NCBI RefSeq assembly: GCF_022533585.1
Contig: NZ_CP092827.1
Location: forward strand, 5,178,001 to 5,242,000
From: Pseudomonas sp. LS.1a
GTDB lineage: Bacteria > Pseudomonadota > Gammaproteobacteria > Pseudomonadales > Pseudomonadaceae
DNA: 64,000 nucleotides
Reading direction: 5' to 3'
In this document: in pieces, positions 5,256 through 43,212 of the stretch
Layout: each line of letters begins with the position of its first letter
Position numbering within the stretch: the first letter of the stretch is position 1
Position numbers and translations under genes: made by a program
Notes under the pieces: model-generated
The model's database searches: none
What the model was told of the DNA's origin: nothing
What the model saw: only the letters and a program-made list of their open reading frames with translations

Positions 5256-5340
5256 CGGCCGTCTCCTCGAACGGATTCAGCGCGAATTATGGCTGTACAA
5301 CGGTTGCGAGCAAACACCCGCACCCAAACCACGTCACAAT

Positions 5341-5793
5341 TCAGCGAACGCTTGCCAGCTCGTGGCCACAGGCCAGGCAGTGGCTCAGCCATTCACCGAG
5401 GAACAGGTTGAGCTGGGCCTTTTCGTCCGGCTGGTGCATGGCCTCGTTGGGATAGGGGTAGATGCTGCGCAGGCGCCGGGTATGTTCGGCACTGACCACT
5501 TCGGCCATGCGCGCATCGTGGTACACCTGCACTTCCAGGTGCGGCACCGGCAACCACGGCAGGCTGTGCTCCTGGCGCACGTGCAGGGTGGTGGTGTACG
5601 GGCAGGCCAGCACCACGTCGAGCACCAGCACGCCAAGCATCTGGTCGCCCTGGGTCATGCCGATGCGGCGCGAGCTCTGGGTGGTACGCATGTCGGGCAA
5701 CAGGCGCATCAGCCGGGCGTAGTTGGCCTCGCAGGCTGCCTGCAGCCCGACCAGGTCGACCCGATAACGCTCGCGCAGCAGGTTCACTTCCAC
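5341..5793 (-). CDS. yqiB: YqiB-like DUF1249 family protein
   Basis: This 150-residue soluble protein has no known catalytic motif. It resembles the DUF1249 (YqiB) family: an N-terminal helix (LRERYRVDLVGLQAACEANY), a central beta-rich part with PYTTTLHVRQEHS and VQVYHDARMAEV, and a Cys/His-containing tail LSHCLACGHEL. Its start codon overlaps the end of nudF by ten bases (5784-5793), so translation of the two is likely coupled. Position between nudF and cpdA is the same as in E. coli. No function has been established that I know of. The identification rests on resemblance plus conserved position. Confidence 0.82.
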   Translation of the reverse strand: MEVNLLRERYRVDLVGLQAACEANYARLMRLLPDMRTTQSSRRIGMTQGDQMLGVLVLDVVLACPYTTTLHVRQEHSLPWLPVPHLEVQVYHDARMAEVVSAEHTRRLRSIYPYPNEAMHQPDEKAQLNLFLGEWLSHCLACGHELASVR

Positions 5794-6401
5794 ATACCTC
5801 GTACTTCGTCACGGTTCAGCGCCAGCCACTGCAGGCCGATGATGGTCGCCGCGTTGCAGATGCGCCCGTCGCGCACTGCCTGCAAGGCATCCTCGAACGA
5901 CCACACGCGCACGCGAATGTCCTCGCCCTCTTCTTCCAGGCCGTGCAGGCCGCCTGCCCCTTCGCTGCTGCAACGGCCGAGGAACAGGTGAACGTATTCG
6001 TCACTGCCGCCGGGCGACGGGAAGTAACGGGTCATCGGCCACAGGGCGCTGAAGGTCAGGCCGGCTTCTTCTTCGGCTTCGCGGTGGGCGACTTCCTCGG
6101 GTTGCTCGTCCTTGTCGATCAGCCCGGCCACCATCTCGATCAGCCAGGGGTTGCCCACCTTGTCCAGCGCCCCCACACGGAACTGCTCGATCAGCACCAC
6201 CTCGTCGCGTTGCGGGTCGTAGGGCAGCACGCACACCGCATCATGGCGCACAAACAGTTCGCGGCTGATCTCGCGGCCCATGCCACCGGCAAACAACTCG
6301 TGGCGCAGGCGTAGCTTGTCGAGCTTGTAAAAGCCCTGGAAGCAATTGGCCCGCTCGATGATTTCGAAGCCCTTGGGCACTGAGTTCAACGCGTCTGACA
6401 T
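5784..6401 (-). CDS. nudF: ADP-ribose pyrophosphatase (Nudix hydrolase)
   Basis: The 205-residue product contains a perfect Nudix box, GLIDKDE..REAEEEAGL, at residues 93-115 (G-x5-E-x7-R-E-x2-E-E-x-G). NudF enzymes split ADP-ribose into AMP and ribose 5-phosphate. The ATG at 6401-6399 (MSDALNSV) is preferred over the one at 6413 because AGGA sits at the right distance before it; the upstream ATG would begin inside that ribosome-binding site. The gene heads the run nudF-yqiB-cpdA and is divergent from the lipoprotein gene at 6587, so the 185-base gap between them should hold both promoters. Confidence 0.93.
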   Translation of the reverse strand: MSDALNSVPKGFEIIERANCFQGFYKLDKLRLRHELFAGGMGREISRELFVRHDAVCVLPYDPQRDEVVLIEQFRVGALDKVGNPWLIEMVAGLIDKDEQPEEVAHREAEEEAGLTFSALWPMTRYFPSPGGSDEYVHLFLGRCSSEGAGGLHGLEEEGEDIRVRVWSFEDALQAVRDGRICNAATIIGLQWLALNRDEVRGMWK

Positions 6402-6586
6402 GGAAATCCTCATTACCTCGAATACCGCATCGCGCCATCCTACTCTGCACGCCTGCCGGTTTCATCCCTTTCCGGCAACCGTTCGCGCACTCGGGACAGC
6501 GCGCCTTCTCTCTGTTAGCTTAGTGGCGAACTGAAGGCCGCGCAGACGGTCAAAGGCCGACTTTTCCCTGTTCTGCAAGGATCCCC

Positions 6587-7333
6587 ATGACACTTGTCAA
6601 ACTGACTTCCGTGGCTGTGCTGGCCCTGGCCCTGGGTGCCTGCCAAAGCCTGTTCACGCCCAACTACCGGGCGCCGCTCGAGGTCAAGCGCGATGCCTGG
6701 GAGCATGTCAAACCCGGCTGCAGCGAAAGCGACTGCCCGCTGGTGAACATCGACATGATCCATTTCCCGGCCTTGCCCAAGCTCGATGGCATCGTCGAGA
6801 AACGCCTGCTGCAACTGACCGAAGACAACCAGCGCGGCAACGCACCGGCCACCCTGCAAGCCTACGAGCAGCAGTACCTGGCCAGCGCCGACAAGCGCAA
6901 CAGCAGCTACCTGCAGGCCAAGGTACGCGAGCAGCATGACGGACTGGTGATCATCGAACTGTCCAGCTACCTGGACAGCGGCGGCGCCCACGGCATGCCC
7001 GGGCGTGGTTTCATCAACTATTCGCGCAAGCTGGACAAGGTGCTGACCCTGCAGGACATGCTGGTGCCCGGCCAGGAAGACACCTTCTGGAAAACCGTCG
7101 AGGAATCGCACCGCGCCTGGCTGATCAGCGTGGGCATGGACAAGGACGCCGAGTTCATCAAGACCTGGCCGTTCAAGCAGTCGCCGCACATCGCCCTGAC
7201 GTACGGCGCGGTGGTGGTCAAGTACGAGGTCTATAGCATCGCGCCCTACTCCATGGGCCACGTGGAATTGAAGATCCCCTACCCGCGCCTGAATGGCGTG
7301 CTCAAGCCTGAACTGTTTCCCGGCCGCGGCTGA
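6587..7333 (+). CDS. RsiV-like DUF3298 family lipoprotein
   Basis: The 248-residue protein begins with a type II signal peptide; the lipobox is ALGAC with the lipidated Cys at residue 19. The mature part resembles the DUF3298/DUF4163 (RsiV family) periplasmic domain, seen in segments such as YLDSGGAHGMPG and a C-terminal YSMGHVELKIPY. In Gram-positive bacteria the related RsiV ectodomain senses lysozyme; here there is no anti-sigma domain, so only the fold can be claimed. The residue after Cys is Gln, not Asp, which favours outer-membrane sorting. A purine tract with AAGGATCC precedes the ATG. The 3' end overlaps the convergent cytX by 32 bases. Confidence 0.8.
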   Translation: MTLVKLTSVAVLALALGACQSLFTPNYRAPLEVKRDAWEHVKPGCSESDCPLVNIDMIHFPALPKLDGIVEKRLLQLTEDNQRGNAPATLQAYEQQYLASADKRNSSYLQAKVREQHDGLVIIELSSYLDSGGAHGMPGRGFINYSRKLDKVLTLQDMLVPGQEDTFWKTVEESHRAWLISVGMDKDAEFIKTWPFKQSPHIALTYGAVVVKYEVYSIAPYSMGHVELKIPYPRLNGVLKPELFPGRG

Positions 7334-8585
7334 AGCTGAGCAGCCCGTGCAGTAGCCCTGCCAGCAGCAATGCCGGCAGGGTCGCCCCCAGGTCCGGCGC
7401 TTGTGCGGCGATCACATGGTACGCCGCCACACCCACCACCCAGGCCAGCAGTGCCTGCCAGTGCAAGCCATTCACCTGTGCCGGCAGGCGGCGGCGACGG
7501 ATCACGTAGTGGTCCATCAGTACCACACCGAACAGCGGTGCGAACACCGAACCGATCAGCAGCAGGAAGTTTTCGTACTGTGCCAGTGGCGCCAGCAGGG
7601 CGATCAGCGTGCACAACACACCAATGGCCAGCGCCAGGTGCTCGACCTTCAGGCGTACCAGCACACCGGTGGAAACGGCCGCCGAGTGTATGTCGGCAAA
7701 CGCCTTTTCCGACTCGTCCAGCAGAATCAGCAGCAATGGAATGCCCATGCCGGCGCCCGCCAGGGCAAGCAGCAGGGCGTTGGCTTCGCCGCTGCCGGCA
7801 AAGGCCAAGGTGTAGCCCACGCCCAGGCTCATCAGCCAGGTGTTGCCGATGAAGTAGCCCAGCACCGTACCGCCGAATACCTGTTTGCCGTTGCGGGCAA
7901 AACGCGAGTAGTCGGCGATCAGCGGCAACCAGGAAAGCGGCATGGCGATGGCAATGTCGAAGCCCACGGCCAGCGACATCGAACCGTCACCGGCGCGGTT
8001 CCACAGTGCTGCCAGGTCAGCCTTGGCGAACAGGTTCCAGGTCAGCCACAGGCACGCGCCCAGCAGCAGCCAGATGCCCCAGGTGCGCAGTACCTTGCGC
8101 ACGAACGCCAGCGGCCCACCGACCGCGAGCAAGGTGGCCAGGGCGCCGAAGCACAGGGTCCAGAGCATCGGGCTGTTCCAGGCACTGGCTTCACCGAACG
8201 CCCGCGCGCCCAGCAGGCTGGCGGCATCGCGCATGACAATGATCTCGAACGCGCCCCAGCCCACCAGTTGCAGCAGGTTGAGTAGCGCCGGCAAGCGCGC
8301 GCCATGGCCGCCCAGGCTGAGTTTCAGGGTGCCCATGGCCGACAGGCCGGTGTCGCTGCCGATGACACCGGCAGCCCCCAGCAACAGCACACCCACGCCG
8401 GTGCCCAGGGCGATGGCCAGCACCGCACCGGCAAGGCCCAGGCCTGGGGCCAGCATGGCGCCGACCTGCAGCACCATCAGGCCGATGCCCAGGGAGAACC
8501 ATAGCGAGAACAGGTCGCGGGCGCCGAAGATGCGCTGGGCGATGGGGACCGGGTGGTCGGGGGAGAATTGGCTGGGTGATGTCAT
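7302..8585 (-). CDS. cytX: CytX-type NCS1 family hydroxymethylpyrimidine permease
   Basis: The 427-residue protein is strongly hydrophobic with about 12 predicted membrane segments and begins with an NCS1-type N-terminus (VPIAQRIFGARDLFSLWFSLGIG). It resembles the CytX branch of nucleobase:cation symporters, often found with thiamin genes and predicted to import the thiamin precursor hydroxymethylpyrimidine (HMP). It lies directly downstream of thiC, which makes HMP phosphate, separated by 165 bases holding a REP pair. That supports the pyrimidine-salvage reading and suggests it shares the TPP riboswitch control of thiC. The ATG at 8585 is chosen because upstream sequence in frame is REP DNA. 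Cytosine permease is the alternative. Confidence 0.82.
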   Translation of the reverse strand: MTSPSQFSPDHPVPIAQRIFGARDLFSLWFSLGIGLMVLQVGAMLAPGLGLAGAVLAIALGTGVGVLLLGAAGVIGSDTGLSAMGTLKLSLGGHGARLPALLNLLQLVGWGAFEIIVMRDAASLLGARAFGEASAWNSPMLWTLCFGALATLLAVGGPLAFVRKVLRTWGIWLLLGACLWLTWNLFAKADLAALWNRAGDGSMSLAVGFDIAIAMPLSWLPLIADYSRFARNGKQVFGGTVLGYFIGNTWLMSLGVGYTLAFAGSGEANALLLALAGAGMGIPLLLILLDESEKAFADIHSAAVSTGVLVRLKVEHLALAIGVLCTLIALLAPLAQYENFLLLIGSVFAPLFGVVLMDHYVIRRRRLPAQVNGLHWQALLAWVVGVAAYHVIAAQAPDLGATLPALLLAGLLHGLLSFSRGRETVQA

Positions 8586-34990: not shown

Positions 34991-37900
34991 ATGGCGACGA
35001 CCACCCTTGGGGTCAAACTCGATGACCCGACCCGTGAGCGACTCAAGGCAGCTGCGCAGTCGATTGACCGCACGCCGCACTGGTTGATCAAGCAAGCGAT
35101 CTTCAACTATCTGGAGAAGCTCGAGGGTGGTGCCACCCTGACCGAACTCAACGGCCATGCCAGCAGCCTGGCCGATGACGCCGGTGAAGTCCAAGCCGAC
35201 CACAGCCACCAGTGCTTCCTCGAGTTCGCCGAGAGCATCCTGCCGCAGTCGGTACTGCGCTCGGCGATCACCGCCGCCTACCGCCGCCCCGAGCAGGAAG
35301 TGGTACCGATGCTGCTGGAGCAGGCGCGCCTGAGCGCCCCGCTGGCCGAAGCGACCAACAAGATGGCCGCCGGCCTCGCCGAAAAACTGCGCAACCAGAA
35401 GAGCGCTGGTGGCCGTGCCGGCATCGTCCAGGGCCTGCTGCAGGAGTTCTCGCTGTCGTCCCAGGAAGGCGTGGCACTGATGTGCCTGGCCGAAGCCCTG
35501 CTGCGCATCCCCGACAAGGGCACCCGTGACGCACTGATTCGCGACAAGATCAGTACCGGCAACTGGCAGCCACACCTGGGCAACAGCCCGTCGCTGTTCG
35601 TCAACGCCGCCACCTGGGGCCTGCTGTTGACCGGCAAGCTGGTGTCCACCCACAACGAATCCGGCCTCACCTCCTCGCTCACCCGCATCATCGGCAAGAG
35701 CGGCGAGCCGATGATCCGCAAGGGCGTCGACATGGCCATGCGCCTGATGGGCGAGCAGTTCGTCACCGGCGAAACCATCGCCGAAGCGCTGGCCAACGCC
35801 AGCCGCTTCGAGTCCAAGGGCTTCCGCTATTCCTACGACATGCTCGGCGAAGCCGCACTGACCGAGCACGACGCACAGAAGTACCTGGCGTCCTACGAGC
35901 AGGCCATCCATTCGATCGGCAAGGCCTCCCATGGCCGTGGCATCTATGAAGGCCCGGGCATCTCGATCAAGCTGTCGGCGCTGCACCCGCGCTACAGCCG
36001 CGCCCAGTACGAGCGCGTGATGGAAGAGCTGTACCCGCGCCTGCTGTCGCTGACCCTGCTGGCCAAGCAGTACGACATCGGCCTGAACATCGACGCCGAA
36101 GAAGCCGATCGCCTGGAGCTGTCGCTCGACCTGCTCGAGCGCCTGTGCTTCGAGCCTTCGCTGGCCGGCTGGAACGGTATCGGCTTCGTTATCCAGGCCT
36201 ACCAGAAGCGCTGCCCGTACGTGATCGACTACGTCATCGACCTGGCCAAGCGCAGCCGCCACCGCCTGATGATCCGCCTGGTGAAAGGCGCCTACTGGGA
36301 CAGCGAGATCAAGCGCGCCCAGGTCGAAGGCCTGGAAGGCTACCCGGTCTACACCCGCAAGGTGTACACCGACGTGTCCTACGTCGCCTGCGCCCGCAAG
36401 CTGCTGGCCGTGCCAGAAGCCATCTACCCGCAGTTCGCCACCCACAACGCCCACACCCTGTCGGCCATCTACCACATTGCCGGGCAGAACTATTACCCGG
36501 GCCAGTACGAGTTCCAGTGCCTGCACGGCATGGGCGAGCCGCTGTACGAGCAGGTGGTCGGGAAAATTTCCGAAGGCAAGCTGAACCGCCCGTGCCGCGT
36601 CTATGCACCGGTCGGCACCCACGAAACGCTGCTGGCCTACCTGGTGCGTCGCCTGCTGGAAAACGGCGCCAACACCTCGTTCGTCAACCGCATCGCCGAC
36701 CACTCGATCTCCATCCAGGAACTGGTCGCCGACCCGGTCGCCAGCATCGAGCGCATGGGCACCCAGGAAGGCAGCATCGGCCTGCCGCACCCACGTATCC
36801 CGCTGCCGCGTGAACTGTATGGCAGCGAGCGGGCCAACTCGGCCGGCATCGACATGGCCAACGAACACCGCCTGGCGTCGCTGTCCTGCGCCATGCTGGC
36901 CACCGCCCACAACGACTGGAAAGCCGCCCCGCTGCTGGCCTGCGCCGCCAGCGAAGGCGCTGCTGCGCCGGTGCTGAACCCGGCGGACCACCGCGACGTG
37001 GTCGGCCATGTTCAGGAAGCCACTGTCGCCGACGTCGACAATGCCATCCAGTGCGCACTGAATGCCGCACCGATCTGGCAGGCCACCCCGCCGGCCGAAC
37101 GCGCTGCCATCCTGGAGCGCACCGCCGACCTGATGGAGGCCGAAATCCAGCCGCTGATGGGCCTGCTGATCCGCGAAGCCGGCAAGACCTTCGCCAACGC
37201 CATCGCCGAAGTGCGTGAAGCCGTGGACTTCCTGCGCTACTACGCGGTGCAGGCACGCAACGACTTCAGCAACGACGCCCACCGCCCGCTGGGCCCGGTG
37301 GTGTGCATCAGCCCGTGGAACTTCCCGCTGGCGATCTTCACCGGCCAGGTGGCCGCAGCGCTCGCCGCCGGCAACCCGGTACTGGCCAAGCCGGCCGAGC
37401 AAACCCCGCTGATCGCCGCCCAGGCCGTGCGCCTGCTGCTGGAAGCCGGTATTCCGGAAGGCGTGCTGCAGCTGCTGCCAGGCCGCGGTGAAACCGTCGG
37501 TGCCGGCCTGGTCGGTGACGAGCGCGTCAAAGGCGTGATGTTCACCGGTTCCACCGAAGTGGCCCGCCTGCTGCAGCGCAACGTCGCCGGCCGCCTGGAC
37601 AACCAGGGCCGCCCGATCCCGCTGATCGCCGAAACCGGCGGCCAGAACGCGATGATCGTCGACTCCTCGGCACTGACCGAGCAGGTAGTGATCGACGTGG
37701 TGTCCTCGGCCTTCGACAGTGCCGGCCAGCGTTGCTCGGCCCTGCGCGTGCTGTGCCTGCAGGAAGACTCCGCCGACCGCGTGATCGAAATGCTCAAGGG
37801 CGCCATGGCCGAAAGCCGCCTGGGCAGCCCGGACCGCCTGGCCGTGGACATTGGCCCGGTAATCGACGCCGAAGCCAAGGCCGGTATCGAGAAGCACATC

Positions 37901-38944
37901 CAGGGCATGCGCGAGAAAGGCCGTTCGGTCTATCAGGTGGCCATTGCCGATGCTGCCGAGATCAAGCGTGGCACCTTCGTCATGCCGACCCTGATCGAGC
38001 TGGAAAGCTTCGACGAGCTGAAGCGTGAAATCTTCGGCCCGGTGCTGCACGTGGTGCGCTACAACCGCCGCAACCTGGACCAGCTGATCGAGCAGATCAA
38101 CAACTCCGGCTATGGCCTGACCCTCGGCGTGCACACCCGCATCGACGAGACCATCGCCAAGGTGGTGGAAACCGCCAACGCCGGCAACATGTACGTCAAC
38201 CGCAACATCGTCGGTGCGGTGGTGGGTGTGCAGCCGTTCGGTGGTGAAGGCCTGTCCGGCACTGGCCCGAAAGCCGGCGGCCCGCTGTACCTGTACCGCC
38301 TGCTGTCGACTCGCCCGGCCGACGCGATTGGCCGCCACTTCCAGCAGCAGGACGGCGAAGGCAAGCCTGACCGCGCCCTGCACGAGCAGTTGATCAAGCC
38401 GCTGCACGGTTTGAAGGCCTGGGCCGAGAGCAACCAGTTGGCCGACCTGGCCGCGCTGTGCAGCCAGTTCGCCAGTCAGTCGCAAAGCGGCATCGCCCGC
38501 CTGCTGCCAGGCCCGACCGGCGAGCGCAACAGCTACACCATCCTGCCGCGTGAGCACGTGCTGTGCCTGGCCGACAACGAGGCCGACCTGCTGGCGCAGT
38601 TCGCCGCAGTGCTGGCGGTTGGCAGCTCGGCGGTATGGGCTGACGGCGAGCCGGGCAAGGCCCTGCGTGCCCGCCTGCCGCGTGAGCTGCAGGCCAAGGT
38701 CAAGCTGGTGGCGGACTGGAACAAGGATGAAGTGGCGTTCGACGCCGTGATCCATCATGGCGACTCGGACCAGCTGCGCGGCGTGTGCCAGCAGGTGGCC
38801 AAGCGTGCCGGTGCGATCGTGGGCGTGCACGGGCTGTCCAGCGGGGATCATCAGATTGCGCTGGAGCGTCTGGTGATCGAGCGGGCAGTGAGTGTGAACA
38901 CTGCTGCGGCGGGTGGTAACGCCAGCCTGATGACCATTGGCTGA
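34991..38944 (+). CDS. putA: Trifunctional transcriptional regulator/proline dehydrogenase/L-glutamate gamma-semialdehyde dehydrogenase
   Basis: The 1317-residue protein is type-B/C PutA with an N-terminal ribbon-helix-helix repressor domain (residues 1-45, TTTLGVKLDDPTRERLKAAA), a FAD-linked proline dehydrogenase barrel (about 200-560) and an ALDH domain (about 640-1100), with catalytic Glu881 (AETGGQNA) and Cys915 (GQRCSAL), followed by the C-terminal lid. It oxidises proline to glutamate at the membrane when proline is present and represses the put genes when free. GAGGATAAGAA precedes the ATG at 34991. The length and domain order equal other pseudomonad PutA. A Rho-independent terminator follows 24 bases after the stop. 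A long opposite-strand open frame here is a shadow. Confidence 0.97.
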   Translation: MATTTLGVKLDDPTRERLKAAAQSIDRTPHWLIKQAIFNYLEKLEGGATLTELNGHASSLADDAGEVQADHSHQCFLEFAESILPQSVLRSAITAAYRRPEQEVVPMLLEQARLSAPLAEATNKMAAGLAEKLRNQKSAGGRAGIVQGLLQEFSLSSQEGVALMCLAEALLRIPDKGTRDALIRDKISTGNWQPHLGNSPSLFVNAATWGLLLTGKLVSTHNESGLTSSLTRIIGKSGEPMIRKGVDMAMRLMGEQFVTGETIAEALANASRFESKGFRYSYDMLGEAALTEHDAQKYLASYEQAIHSIGKASHGRGIYEGPGISIKLSALHPRYSRAQYERVMEELYPRLLSLTLLAKQYDIGLNIDAEEADRLELSLDLLERLCFEPSLAGWNGIGFVIQAYQKRCPYVIDYVIDLAKRSRHRLMIRLVKGAYWDSEIKRAQVEGLEGYPVYTRKVYTDVSYVACARKLLAVPEAIYPQFATHNAHTLSAIYHIAGQNYYPGQYEFQCLHGMGEPLYEQVVGKISEGKLNRPCRVYAPVGTHETLLAYLVRRLLENGANTSFVNRIADHSISIQELVADPVASIERMGTQEGSIGLPHPRIPLPRELYGSERANSAGIDMANEHRLASLSCAMLATAHNDWKAAPLLACAASEGAAAPVLNPADHRDVVGHVQEATVADVDNAIQCALNAAPIWQATPPAERAAILERTADLMEAEIQPLMGLLIREAGKTFANAIAEVREAVDFLRYYAVQARNDFSNDAHRPLGPVVCISPWNFPLAIFTGQVAAALAAGNPVLAKPAEQTPLIAAQAVRLLLEAGIPEGVLQLLPGRGETVGAGLVGDERVKGVMFTGSTEVARLLQRNVAGRLDNQGRPIPLIAETGGQNAMIVDSSALTEQVVIDVVSSAFDSAGQRCSALRVLCLQEDSADRVIEMLKGAMAESRLGSPDRLAVDIGPVIDAEAKAGIEKHIQGMREKGRSVYQVAIADAAEIKRGTFVMPTLIELESFDELKREIFGPVLHVVRYNRRNLDQLIEQINNSGYGLTLGVHTRIDETIAKVVETANAGNMYVNRNIVGAVVGVQPFGGEGLSGTGPKAGGPLYLYRLLSTRPADAIGRHFQQQDGEGKPDRALHEQLIKPLHGLKAWAESNQLADLAALCSQFASQSQSGIARLLPGPTGERNSYTILPREHVLCLADNEADLLAQFAAVLAVGSSAVWADGEPGKALRARLPRELQAKVKLVADWNKDEVAFDAVIHHGDSDQLRGVCQQVAKRAGAIVGVHGLSSGDHQIALERLVIERAVSVNTAAAGGNASLMTIG

Positions 38945-39124: not shown

Positions 39125-39388
39125 TCACTGCTTCATCCCCAACTCAGCATCATCCATCAGTGCCTTGGCCATCGCACTCAGGTAATAGGCAGCCCAGATC
39201 ATCATCGGCTTCTCATCCATCAGCCCGGTAATGGTCAATTCACGGACATACCCCATCAACTCCGAAGACTGCTCGCGGGCGTCCCTGCACGGGATACCGG
39301 GCTCGATGCGGAAAAGCGGGTGTGTGCCATTCTCGCCCTGGTAGAAGGTAGTCTTGCCGACGGTGAATTGGGTGTCTTCTGTTGTCAT
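39125..39388 (-). CDS. DUF3077 family protein
   Basis: This 87-residue protein, MTTEDTQFTVGKTTFYQGE onward, resembles the short DUF3077 proteins found in several copies in P. putida genomes. No catalytic or membrane motif is seen; two amphipathic helices (ASELMGYVREL-like and AAYYLSAMAKALMDDAE) make up most of it. Its function is unknown. Upstream on the same strand are a REP pair and a damaged member of the companion small-protein family (MLKIVPDPP type), suggesting these two used to be an adjacent gene pair. The ATG at 39388 is preceded by GGGGATTG and the ORF uses typical codons. Confidence 0.8.
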   Translation of the reverse strand: MTTEDTQFTVGKTTFYQGENGTHPLFRIEPGIPCRDAREQSSELMGYVRELTITGLMDEKPMMIWAAYYLSAMAKALMDDAELGMKQ

Positions 39389-39420
39389 TGTTCAATCCCC
39401 TGATAATTCTCGACTGCCTG

Positions 39421-39523
39421 GGCCGGCCCTTTCGCGGGCATGCCCGCTCCCACAGGTTCACCACAGGCTTCAAGACTTGCACCGTACCTGTGGGAGCGGG
39501 CATGCCCGCGAAAGGGCCGGCCG
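39421..39523. repeat. REP pair upstream of DUF3077
   Basis: GGCCGGCCCTTTCGCGGGCATGCCCGCTCCCACAGG and its inverted copy CCTGTGGGAGCGGGCATGCCCGCGAAAGGGCCGGCC are nearly perfect complements. The pair abuts the broken small gene at 39530-39624. Confidence 0.9.
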
Positions 39524-39529
39524 AGGCGA

Positions 39530-39659: not shown

Positions 39660-39850
39660 TGCTGTCAAACAAGAGGGTGGCAGCTGTACATGGGTTGACA
39701 GACCGGTAGGCAAACCAAAAAACCGGCGCACACGAAGTGCCCCATGCACAGCTGCCATAAAGGCAAAGCCATGCGGTTTGACCTGAGCGGCCTGTCAAAG
39801 CCGGCCACTGATTTGGCAGCGACCACCCGAGACTAGGGCCCTGCCCAGAG
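39660..39850 (-). ncRNA. Candidate structured leader RNA upstream of the small-gene remnant
   Basis: No gene fits here, yet the sequence is rich in paired arms. The main stem joins 39678-39693 (GGCAGCTGTACATGGG) with 39741-39756 (CCCATGCACAGCTGCC): 16 pairs, the single mismatch being a G-U wobble on the minus-strand RNA but an A-C clash on the plus strand. Inside are ACCGGT/ACCGG and GCAC..TTCG..GTGC hairpins; outside are TTTGAC/GTCAAA (39777-39782 with 39794-39799) and two more TGTCAA-type copies. On the minus strand it would lie about 50-220 bases before the remnant's ATG, so a cis-acting leader or a small RNA is likely. Function unknown. Confidence 0.5.
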
Positions 39851-40060: not shown

Positions 40061-40492
40061 TCATCCGAGCCTTCGCCAGAACCACCAAAGGCTTAGGATT
40101 TTAGCCCCTTCAGAAGCTGCGAAAAGGCTCAACCAAACCCACGTACTGGTATCTGGCAATAATAGAAACAAAGAAAACGACGGAACTATAAACAAGACAC
40201 GAAATGGAAATTGAACGAAAGCCAGATAACGCCCTGATCTTCTCCCCATACAAAGCAATATGCTACTGGCAACAAGGGATACCTGGACAATCAGTCCCAT
40301 CCACACCATGAACTCAAGCCCTCCCCCCCACTGTTCCATGTTTGCAAGGGCGGAATTGAAATCACTCACAAAGGGGGTCAAACCTCTATTCAGGCTACTG
40401 ACCACAACGAAAGAAATGTAAAAAGCATCCATACCACCCCAAAACAAACCGACCAAACGCGTTGACCTTATCAAGCCGATGCTCCAGCTCAT
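40061..40492 (-). CDS. Hypothetical four-helix membrane protein (candidate immunity-like partner)
   Basis: I do not recognise this 143-residue protein. It has four likely membrane segments (about 12-33, 57-80, 90-111 and 115-135), short loops with charged residues, and ends in WWFWRRLG. The DNA is A+T-rich compared with neighbours (37% G+C in one counted line versus 68% in the acyl-CoA dehydrogenase gene) and uses codons rare nearby. Its start overlaps the stop of the gene upstream by four bases (ATGA, 40489-40492), so the two are translated together. A small membrane protein coupled to a soluble partner is a pattern of immunity genes, but no toxin signature backs this up. Confidence 0.7.
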   Translation of the reverse strand: MSWSIGLIRSTRLVGLFWGGMDAFYISFVVVSSLNRGLTPFVSDFNSALANMEQWGGGLEFMVWMGLIVQVSLVASSILLCMGRRSGRYLAFVQFPFRVLFIVPSFSLFLLLPDTSTWVWLSLFAASEGAKILSLWWFWRRLG

Positions 40493-41172
40493 TTATCTTT
40501 TAACTCATATTCTTCATTTGCGATTACTGGTCGCCAATGCCATGAGGAGCCCGACACATCCCAGGCATCATCAGCCTCCACATAAATTTGGGCTACTTTA
40601 CGTTCCATTCCATATCTGTGGATTGCGGAGGACGGCGAAAAATTCTGCTCCTCTTCATCTAGCGGTACCCATTCCTGCGTAACTGTTCTCGTCGTATTCG
40701 CAAAATCTTTCCCTGACGACAAGAAGACTCGCCCCTCATCTCCTCTTGATGTAAGGAAATTCGCAACAAAGGCAGCACTCGAAGCAAGTTTATTAACACG
40801 CATAGCTGTTATCTTCCACTTGCCCGGCCCACTCATCGCAGAAACAGTGTTAATAAAATCGCCGCCGCCCCTCTCACGACAACTTCTCGCATACCAATTC
40901 TCTTCGAGATTTATCGGCTTGAATGGCCTATCTCTAATCAGCATCCACTCACCTGATGCAACCGGCCTAAGCGCTCTATCAATTTGATCACTCGCCAGTC
41001 TAACCGAGCCATACAAACCGCACTCCTTTAAGAGTTCTGTTACGCCGAATATTTCTTGTACGTAGCCCCTACTTTGCAAATAATCTCTAATTATCCCGGC
41101 CGAAAAGAATGGGTCTTCGACCCTACACAGGTCATCCGTTCGAACGTTCGTCCAGCGAGTGAGCTTTTCCAT
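40489..41172 (-). CDS. Hypothetical soluble protein of the A+T-rich module
   Basis: The 227-residue protein (MEKLTRWTNVRTDD onward) matches no family I know. It has no signal peptide or membrane segment. The C-terminal half is rich in Trp, Glu and Asp and includes the stretch RVFLSSGKDFANTTRTVTQEW. The ATG at 41172 is chosen because GGAGG stands seven bases before it; a TTG six bases upstream lacks such a site. The gene is A+T-rich like its partner and overlaps it by four bases. The pair lies between the putA/DUF3077 region and the acyl-CoA dehydrogenase gene, as an inserted module. An effector, toxin or regulatory role is possible, none shown. Confidence 0.7.
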   Translation of the reverse strand: MEKLTRWTNVRTDDLCRVEDPFFSAGIIRDYLQSRGYVQEIFGVTELLKECGLYGSVRLASDQIDRALRPVASGEWMLIRDRPFKPINLEENWYARSCRERGGGDFINTVSAMSGPGKWKITAMRVNKLASSAAFVANFLTSRGDEGRVFLSSGKDFANTTRTVTQEWVPLDEEEQNFSPSSAIHRYGMERKVAQIYVEADDAWDVSGSSWHWRPVIANEEYELKDK

Positions 41173-41409
41173 TGCCAATCCTCCATTCAGAACACCGACG
41201 TTTACATTCGCTAGATCAAAAAATCTGTAGGACCACTTCTGATAACGCTGTGGGAAATTTCTCTATCTTTAATGGAAAGCAACACCTGTACGGATGCCAG
41301 ACCGCAGGTCTCATTACACTTTCTCAACCCATATCACCCAAACCTATTAACCTGTCGCCCACCCCACCACCCTCCTACACTCGCAGCATCCCGCCTCAGG
41401 ACCGCGACC

Positions 41410-43212
41410 ATGCCCGAGACCCTGCTCAGCCCCCGCAACCTCGCCTTCGAACTCTACGAAGTCCTCGAAGCCGAAGCCCTGACCCAGCGCCCACGCTTCG
41501 CCGAGCACAACCGCGAAACCTTCGATGCAGCGCTATCAACTGCCCGCACCATTGCCGAGAAGTTCTTCGCCCCGCACAACCGCAAGGCCGACGAAAACGA
41601 GCCGCGTTATGTCGACGGCCGCGCAGAGCTGATCCCCGAAGTAAAACCCGCCATCGACGCCTTTCTCGAAGCCGGCTTCCTCAACGCCAACCGTGACTTC
41701 GAGGTCGGTGGCATGCAGCTGCCGAGCCTGGTCTCACAGGCCTGCTTCGCCCACTTCCAGGCCGCCAACGCCGGCACCACGGCCTACCCGTTCCTGACCA
41801 TGGGCGCGGCCAACCTGATCGAGAGTTTCGGCAGCGAAGAACAGAAGCGCCTGTTCCTCCAGCCGATGATCGAGGGCCGCTACTTCGGCACCATGGCCCT
41901 GACCGAACCCCACGCCGGCTCGTCACTGGCCGATATCCGCACCCGCGCCGAACCCGCCAGTGACGGCAGCTACCGACTCAAGGGCAACAAGATCTTCATC
42001 TCCGGCGGCGACCACGAGCTGTCGGAAAACATCGTGCACATGGTCCTAGCCAAGCTGCCGGACGCACCGCCCGGGGTGAAGGGCATTTCGCTGTTCATCG
42101 TGCCGAAGTACCTGGTCAACCCGGACGGCAGCCGTGGCCCGCGCAACGATGTGCTGCTGGCCGGCTTGTTCCACAAGATGGGCTGGCGCGGCACCACCTC
42201 CACCGCGCTGAACTTCGGCGACAACGGCCAGTGCGTCGGCTACCTGGTCGGCCAGCCGCACCAGGGCCTGGCCTGCATGTTCCAGATGATGAACGAAGCA
42301 CGCATCGGTGTCGGCATGGGCGCGGTGATGCTCGGCTACGCCGGCTACCTGTATTCGCTGGAATACGCCCGCCAGCGCCCGCAGGGCCGGTTGCCGGACA
42401 ACAAGGACCCGCACAGCCCGGCAGTGCCGATCATCGAACACACCGATGTGAAACGCATGCTGCTGGCACAGAAGGCCTACGTGGAAGGCGCCTTCGACCT
42501 GGGCCTGTATGCCGCGCGCCTGTTCGACGACACCCAGACTGCCAGCGACGACAGCGCCCGCAAGCAGGCGCAGGAGCTGCTCGACCTGCTGACCCCGATC
42601 GTCAAGTCCTGGCCCTCGGCCTTCTGCCTCAAGGCCAACGAACTGGCGATCCAGATCCTCGGCGGCCACGGCTACACCCGCGAATACCCGGTGGAGCAGT
42701 ACTACCGCGACAACCGCCTGAACCCGATCCACGAGGGTACCGAGGGCATCCAGTCGCTCGACCTGCTCGGCCGCAAACTGGCGCAGAACAATGGTGCCGG
42801 CCTCAAACAGCTGATCCGCCTGATCGCCGCCACCGGCGAGCGCGCCAGCCACCACCCGAACCTCGACCCACTGCGCCAGCCGCTGGAGCAACTGGTCAAC
42901 CGCCTGCAAGGTGTGACCCTGGCCCTGCTTGGCGACCTGGCCCAGGGCAAGGTCGCCGGTACCCTGGCCAACTCCGCCTTGTACCTCAAGGCCTTCGGCC
43001 ACTGCGTGATCGGCTGGCGCTGGCTGGAGCAGGCGATTCATGCCGAGCTTGGACTGCTCAAGGGCAACCCTGCCGACCGCGACTTCTACCTCGGCAAGCT
43101 ACAGGCCGCGCGTTATTTCCTGACCTGGGAAGTACCGGGCTGCCATAATGAGCTGGCATTGCTCGAGGCGCGCGACGATACCTGCCTCGCCATGCAAGAC
43201 GGGTGGTTCTAG
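41410..43212 (+). CDS. Acyl-CoA dehydrogenase, 600-residue C-terminal-domain type
   Basis: The 600-residue flavoprotein has the acyl-CoA dehydrogenase N, middle and C domains plus an added C-terminal domain of about 120 residues typical of the long FadE-like members. The FAD/acyl site region is GTMALTEPHAGSSLADIRT (about 160-178) and the catalytic base sits in HEGTEGIQSLDL (about 445-455). It oxidises acyl-CoA to enoyl-CoA in fatty-acid or other acid catabolism; no electron-transfer or hydratase gene lies next to it. The ATG at 41410 (MPETLLSP) is preferred over a longer in-frame start lying inside the low-G+C spacer. The substrate chain length is unknown. Confidence 0.9.
   Translation: MPETLLSPRNLAFELYEVLEAEALTQRPRFAEHNRETFDAALSTARTIAEKFFAPHNRKADENEPRYVDGRAELIPEVKPAIDAFLEAGFLNANRDFEVGGMQLPSLVSQACFAHFQAANAGTTAYPFLTMGAANLIESFGSEEQKRLFLQPMIEGRYFGTMALTEPHAGSSLADIRTRAEPASDGSYRLKGNKIFISGGDHELSENIVHMVLAKLPDAPPGVKGISLFIVPKYLVNPDGSRGPRNDVLLAGLFHKMGWRGTTSTALNFGDNGQCVGYLVGQPHQGLACMFQMMNEARIGVGMGAVMLGYAGYLYSLEYARQRPQGRLPDNKDPHSPAVPIIEHTDVKRMLLAQKAYVEGAFDLGLYAARLFDDTQTASDDSARKQAQELLDLLTPIVKSWPSAFCLKANELAIQILGGHGYTREYPVEQYYRDNRLNPIHEGTEGIQSLDLLGRKLAQNNGAGLKQLIRLIAATGERASHHPNLDPLRQPLEQLVNRLQGVTLALLGDLAQGKVAGTLANSALYLKAFGHCVIGWRWLEQAIHAELGLLKGNPADRDFYLGKLQAARYFLTWEVPGCHNELALLEARDDTCLAMQDGWF

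Follow-up and report, generated by a model that had tools for sequence, protein, structure and literature searches.

What does a pair of overlapping, A+T-rich genes of no recognized family do between two genes of the core genome? The question is raised by a stretch of 64,000 nucleotides from Pseudomonas sp. LS.1a (contig NZ_CP092827.1, positions 5,178,001 to 5,242,000 of the forward strand), referred to here in its full length as the window, in which the gene for a soluble protein (E) is followed on the minus strand by that for a small membrane protein (I), the two lying between putA and an acyl-CoA dehydrogenase gene. A preliminary description had likened this layout to effector/immunity or toxin/antitoxin pairs. 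On the basis of sequence comparisons, we consider it quite likely that E and I are an orphan antibacterial cargo effector of the type VI secretion system (T6SS) and its membrane immunity protein. The toxin half of E is the C-terminus of VgrG proteins elsewhere and a membrane-protein relative of I lies downstream of it in every locus examined, and for these reasons the effector/immunity half of the earlier likening is strongly favoured. An integral membrane protein as the partner, and relatives of the pair that sit in T6SS clusters, speak against the other half, a classical type II toxin/antitoxin system. In window coordinates, the features are:

40489..41172, minus strand: E, whole gene; candidate T6SS effector of 227 amino acids, with its ATG at 41172 and its TGA stop ending at 40489
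40061..40492, minus strand: I; integral membrane protein of 143 amino acids, candidate immunity protein
40489..40492, minus strand: ATGA overlap of the E stop and the I start (translational coupling), read from the sequence
41180..41184, minus strand: GGAGG, candidate ribosome-binding site of E, read directly in the sequence
40858..41172, minus strand: E N-terminal module (residues 1-105); probable delivery module, common to other Pseudomonas effector-like proteins
40495..40842, minus strand: E C-terminal module (residues 111-226); candidate toxin domain
34991..38944, plus strand: putA, flank of the insertion site (Pfam; synteny)
41410..43212, plus strand: acyl-CoA dehydrogenase gene, the other flank (Pfam; synteny)

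The proposal starts from the two modules of E, which are found apart. A search with E of 298 Pseudomonas genomes (the samples searched hold one genome per species) gave matches in 32, and beside the full-length ones there were two partial kinds, in which either E residues ~111-226 matched the C-terminus of frames of ~600-1050 residues or E residues ~1-105 matched the N-terminus of frames of ~350-470 residues. Proteins of the first kind are VgrG spike proteins in L031, L034, L035, L036 and L033 (the last cut by a contig end), and those scanned carry Phage_GPD and Phage_base_V plus T6SS_Vgr and DUF2345 or Gp5_trimer_C (Pfam/NCBIfam), while in L032 the C-terminal module sits on an SH3_3 protein that is also cut by a contig end. 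With separate profiles for the C-terminal (A3) and N-terminal (A4) modules, the C-terminal module was found in 25 of the 298 Pseudomonas genomes and in 5/398 genomes of a phylum sample, three of them outside Pseudomonas and two within it (that of the window and one other). Two sets of loci that overlap in genomes were then available, one of 28-29 loci fetched from whole genomes (28 with the toxin module: L031-L036, L044-L062 and L121-L123) and one of 50 loci from a scan of named species genomes, 51 with the window. The named set has the C-terminal module on VgrG in 21 of 50 loci and preceded by the N-terminal module in 23 of 51 (window included), a few of these 23, L203, L227 and L248 among them, being pieces of a broken gene. 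Its other carriers are long proteins without a VgrG match (L228, L232), forms of 267-288 amino acids (L241, L242), a PAAR-like fusion (L212; E-value 1.1e-8, yet below the NCBIfam cut-off) and, in one locus, an Rhs protein (L249); the locus L230 is cut by the contig start. The genera with the domain include Stutzerimonas, Leclercia, Lelliottia, Cedecea, Citrobacter, Enterobacter, Kosakonia, Pluralibacter and Yersinia, and it is on VgrG spikes in several gammaproteobacterial genera (Pseudomonas, Stutzerimonas, Leclercia, Lelliottia, Citrobacter and others). Among 72,556 plasmid records it occurs in four, all from Rahnella, directly behind vgrG in the one examined, where the order given by the depositors is tssH, hypothetical, vgrG, hypothetical (the toxin domain, in its own frame), hypothetical, lipase and PAAR. 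Thus, in these alignments, residues 111-226 of E behave as a domain that is exchanged between VgrG and carriers of the N-terminal module.

The second line of evidence is the partner, homologues of which were sought with an I profile in stop-free pieces of the loci. A homologue directly follows the toxin module in 28/28 of the fetched whole-genome loci and in 51/51 loci of the second set (window included), against 0/6 for loci with the N-terminal module alone (L037-L042; L043 had neither), and therefore I tracks the C-terminal module. It follows that module alike on VgrG, PAAR-like, Rhs or N-terminal-module carriers, and does not follow the N-terminal module. The four-base overlap of E and I recurs in 9 of the 21 loci where both genes were called by script, the larger overlaps hinging on the start codon that the script chose. 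The two genes also differ in their integrity. The toxin frame is not whole in 6/29 whole-genome loci (L044, L045, L046, L049, L053 and L058) and 5/50 named loci, that of L035, which ends a few residues early, being counted as whole, and several loci are in draft assemblies, so that some of the breaks may be sequencing errors; the I frame is broken in 0/29 and 0/50, respectively. Two loci have doubled I homologues: in L123 (7481-8414) two stand in tandem next to one toxin gene, and in L045 (7689-8201 and 9980-10507) two are separated by ~1.8 kb and accompanied by no more than a toxin fragment. By analogy, both arrangements resemble immunity arrays.

The links of the toxin module to T6SS are of unequal value. 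The genome of the window has two TssC genes (two T6SS sheath loci). Phage_GPD has four strong matches there, to frames of VgrG length (637-777 residues), and three weaker ones, to frames of ~360 residues. TssC is present in 28/28 genomes with the toxin module and 20/22 with only the N-terminal module, but this co-occurrence is uninformative because 46 of 50 Pseudomonas genomes with neither module have it too. It is proximity that supports the link, since six of the 28 whole-genome loci (L031, L035, L036, L121, L122 and L123) have TssC no more than 20 kb from the toxin module. In addition, a ClpV homologue is found within up to 6 kb upstream in 10/50 named-genome loci, and ClpV, TssG and VgrG relatives were found by BLAST in T6SS-type loci; we take the gene lists of L031, L121, L122 and L123 together to comprise ClpV, TssG or TssK-like, VgrG and PAAR-like genes. 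A stand-alone form of the toxin is embedded in a T6SS cluster in L122 and L123 (tssG, clpV, kinase, toxin, Imm, VgrG), which were assigned to Enterobacteriaceae by similarity, and likewise, as one of the 267-288 amino acid class, in L241. The same form in Kosakonia cowanii (L242, 5488-6805) is an orphan toxin-immunity pair beside what is presumably the methionine synthase gene, another core-genome site. By sequence, this 267-288 amino acid form in Enterobacteriaceae is a bridge between the T6SS-clustered and the orphan states.

The N-terminal module, which is ~100 residues long and in which the stretch (V/I)E(S/D)PFFA recurs, was detected by its profile in 40/298 Pseudomonas genomes and, outside Pseudomonas, in one genome of a class sample besides the window's own (2/321). 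Behind it lie tails of several kinds: Amidase_2 (L037, L041), alpha/beta-hydrolase (L042, L039), Pyocin_S (L118), glycine-rich tails without an assigned family (L038, L040) and, in L199 from outside Pseudomonas, a tail without an assigned family, the next gene there having a weak Imm49 match. It is probably a delivery module, to judge from this range of tails. Nine loci (L108-L112, L116, L117, L038 and L040) encode proteins of ~450-480 amino acids in which the N-terminal module and a common middle part lead into a hydrophobic, glycine-rich tail; in most of these loci small genes for apparent membrane proteins come next. No Pfam match above the cut-off was found in the three that were scanned (L108, L038 and L040), and we regard them as candidate pore-forming effectors.

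How did the pair come to lie where it does? The dehydrogenase is present in 34 relatives besides the window's genome, and in the 20 that were read, mostly best matches, the pair is absent from this site in all 20, which supports the earlier view of an acquired cassette between core genes; nor do both proteins prove to have housekeeping homologues standing at this locus in all Pseudomonas. In 18 of the 20, putA is next to the dehydrogenase without the pair, with ~135-275 bp between the matches in 13 and more in five, and in the other two (L187 and L197) the stretch has no putA. The five relatives with the wider gap (L178, L179, L180, L182 and L183) carry other genes in it. These include a YoeB/YefM pair (L179), a DUF3800 protein (L178) and apparent membrane proteins without a family. 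The genome of L179 carries an E/I pair at another place (L055). The pair or its remains do lie beside putA in ten loci (the window, L046, L047, L048, L049, L050, L052, L053, L057 and L058), and in nine of them the opposite flank is the acyl-CoA dehydrogenase gene, the contig of L047 ending first. At this one site E of the window is 37-41% identical to that of L050, L052 and L057 whereas putA and the dehydrogenase are 82-96% identical, and therefore, on these alignments, the site has seen turnover and not vertical descent alone. Between putA and the pair, the window also contains, on the minus strand, an 87-amino acid DUF3077 protein (39125-39388), a C4 antisense RNA (Rfam; 39673-39762, 76.2 bits) and a C4 a1/b1 target element (Rfam; 39784-39836, 59.1 bits), the DUF3077 gene lying between putA and the C4 RNA. 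Small open reading frames that resemble the DUF3077 one, as judged by eye, occupy the equivalent site in L178 and L179. A 42-nucleotide inverted repeat at 39416-39527 (98% complementary, 28-nucleotide loop) belongs, we assume, to a type often met between genes in Pseudomonas.

The pair in the window bears out what had been noted of its layout and composition, namely two minus-strand genes of 227 and 143 residues that are coupled by an ATGA overlap and have a G+C content clearly under that of their flanks. The first possible start of E in the open reading frame list is a TTG at 41178 (229 amino acids); the ATG at 41172 is preferred because M1 is near-invariant in the E family alignment and GGAGG lies seven bases upstream of it. 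The G+C content is 47.1% for the pair and 64.0% for the window, a value as low or lower being reached in only 4 of 1258 sliding windows of the same length (50-base steps), the lowest of which starts at ~40150, within the pair, and the third-position G+C (GC3) is 45% for E and 51% for I versus 87% for both flanking genes. Chance reading frames are excluded, since 38 proteins match E and 29 match I at E-value ≤ 1e-3, one or two of the 38 being perhaps the window's own protein. The named homologues are nearly all from Pseudomonas and every one is annotated as hypothetical or uncharacterized. Hydropathy agrees with a soluble E (no hydrophobic segment and no signal peptide-like hydrophobic start) and a membrane-bound I, as first described; the four helices then given to I are plausible, with three clear segments and a probable fourth.

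That no family would be recognized also held, as neither protein of the window has a Pfam or NCBIfam match at E-value ≤ 1. Against Pfam, 26 E-family members gave seven weak matches, each on one member only (best E-value 0.0051), and 24 I-family members gave a weak DUF7942 match in 8/24 (best E-value 0.022, below the Pfam cut-off), with no DUF7942 match among 10 further I homologues at E-value ≤ 1. The DUF6402 family (PF19940) was considered and set aside: it has no match among the 26 E-family members, in the window's genome or at the toxin loci of 12 genomes, there being one at an unrelated place in genome G053. Sequence profiles gave nothing significant against the PDB (best E-value 0.11 for the C-terminal module and 0.46 for the N-terminal module, none for I). 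The AlphaFold2 model of E (mean pLDDT 85.7, pTM 0.48) has two modules, the C-terminal one rich in strands, and comparison with solved folds brought out no clear structural match.

Any mechanism put forward for this pair must be weighed against other roles. The two could be an effector/immunity pair that uses another delivery, such as bacteriocin-like release, an extracellular contractile tail or another secretion system, with the N-terminal module serving that route and the toxin domain alone borrowed by T6SS VgrGs. Indeed, in the loci examined the N-terminal module was never seen fused to VgrG, PAAR or Rhs, nor was it seen near T6SS genes, and in L118 the Pyocin_S fusion adjoins a protein with a Phage_P2_GpU domain (5311-6183 and 6302-7582) in a genome without TssC, an arrangement that possibly represents another delivery route. 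However, the L118 tail also matches the NCBIfam model of the VPA1263 T6SS effector, though at 105 of 900 bits, far below its cut-off; E lacks a signal peptide-like start; the related effector form of Enterobacteriaceae occurs both in T6SS clusters and as an orphan; and amidase, alpha/beta-hydrolase and DNase-like domains, such as follow the N-terminal module, are typical of the T6SS cargo repertoire. We therefore hold delivery by another route to be unlikely.

A toxin-antitoxin or phage-defence pair that acts inside its own producer would fit the coupled two-gene layout, the low G+C content and the variable presence at a site that holds YoeB/YefM in one relative, but it fits poorly with an integral membrane partner, with a toxin domain that sits on VgrG spikes elsewhere and with the absence of any match to E or its toxin domain among 50,697 phage records, and is in our judgement very improbable. 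Scarcely any likelihood is left to the non-weapon reading, in which E is a host-acting or accessory T6SS protein and I its membrane chaperone or receptor. No enzyme motif was recognized in E and no fold was matched, as this reading would allow, but the adjacent partner in 51/51 loci, the frame breaks confined to the putative toxin side and a divergence of E far above that of the flanks together make the pattern of an antibacterial pair.

For an antibacterial T6SS effector and its immunity protein, we put forward the following hypothetical mechanism. E and I would be made together by coupled translation, as the layout of the genes suggests, and the N-terminal module of E would then dock E onto the T6SS spike or tube, a step that we regard as likely in a genome with T6SS loci and several VgrGs. 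That E is injected into a neighbouring bacterium is highly likely. In the recipient the C-terminal module (residues 111-226), the swapping of which is seen directly in the alignments, would very probably be the toxic part. We suggest, at about even confidence, that its site of action is the periplasm or the inner membrane, where it might, for example, disturb the membrane or attack a membrane-bound target, because the partner matched to it is small and integral to the membrane. The location of an immunity protein typically indicates the site of action of its effector, as stated in the account of Ssp4/Sip4 (PMC12669606), and an envelope target would also agree with precedents among membrane immunity proteins, namely Tmi (PMC7046647), Sip4 (PMC12669606) and TspI1b, which is predicted to have four helices (PMC9846239). 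Very probably, I, in the inner membrane of the producer and its kin, would block the toxin there.

The proposed pair has likenesses in several known systems. In specialized ("evolved") VgrG effectors, exemplified in the cited account by VgrG2b of P. aeruginosa and VgrG-3 of V. cholerae (PMC11148199), the arrangement is that of the relatives of the toxin domain, a VgrG C-terminus with the partner gene directly downstream, but E of the window has no VgrG domains (Pfam), having the N-terminal module in their place, and matches no metallopeptidase or lysozyme family. The Ssp4/Sip4 pair of Serratia marcescens, an experimentally established T6SS pair, has genes that are described as part of DNA inserted at the ilv locus (PMC12669606), and so resembles the present one as an effector with membrane immunity inserted at a core metabolic locus. 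Sip4 is given there as an inner-membrane protein with four predicted helices and Ssp4 as having 13 predicted helices, some transmembrane, and one sheet; on those descriptions, E is set apart by hydropathy and by its model, as it lacks any hydrophobic segment and its C-terminal module is rich in strands.

In the Tme/Tmi membrane-disrupting effectors, as published, a toxic C-terminus is likewise found on varied proteins with a downstream immunity gene whose product mostly has 3-6 predicted transmembrane helices (PMC7046647). Their hallmark, a near-invariant DxxK followed by a transmembrane helix, was sought among the 21 C-terminal modules of alignment A3 and does not characterize them: DxxK is present in 7/21 (at one equivalent position in five of them, at others in two) and a hydrophobic helix in 0/21 (highest 19-residue mean 1.18). 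The 24 I-family members gave no DUF1240 match against Pfam at E-value ≤ 10, a comparison to be read with the published remark that the Tmi1/2 link needed profile comparison (PMC7046647).

The N-terminal module is comparable to the RIX, MIX, FIX and WHIX modules (for WHIX, PMC12135965), which are described as paired with varied toxins, RIX, FIX and MIX being N-terminal to them. RIX is reported to be of ~55 residues and only in Vibrionaceae and Moritellaceae (PMC10435454), and on that length and host range it is distinct from the ~100-residue, mostly Pseudomonas module of E. The antibacterial T6SS pairs Tke1-Tke10 of P. putida KT2440, some of which are termed orphan, comprise nucleases, colicin-like pore formers, MIX-bearing and Tse6-like proteins (PMC5363822); none of these types, as described, fits E.

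It should be noted that polymorphic T6SS effectors are a known kind, and what is distinctive here is that, in the searches made, no named Pfam or NCBIfam family matches either module or the immunity family; in the literature that the searches covered, neither module was met under a name. We tentatively suggest, with somewhat less than even confidence, that the locus combines a toxin domain of possibly new fold and a membrane immunity family without a name with a Pseudomonas T6SS marker, the N-terminal module, which like MIX and RIX would define orphan two-gene effector cassettes (amidase, alpha/beta-hydrolase, DNase-like, pore-like and the present toxin) across core-genome sites. Orphan T6SS cargo effectors escape neighbourhood searches, and a marker module of this kind would reveal a hidden arsenal in plant-associated Pseudomonas, while naming the toxin domain would annotate many entries that now read "hypothetical" or plain "VgrG". 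The gap between putA and the acyl-CoA dehydrogenase gene, for its part, is a ready natural experiment on effector turnover.
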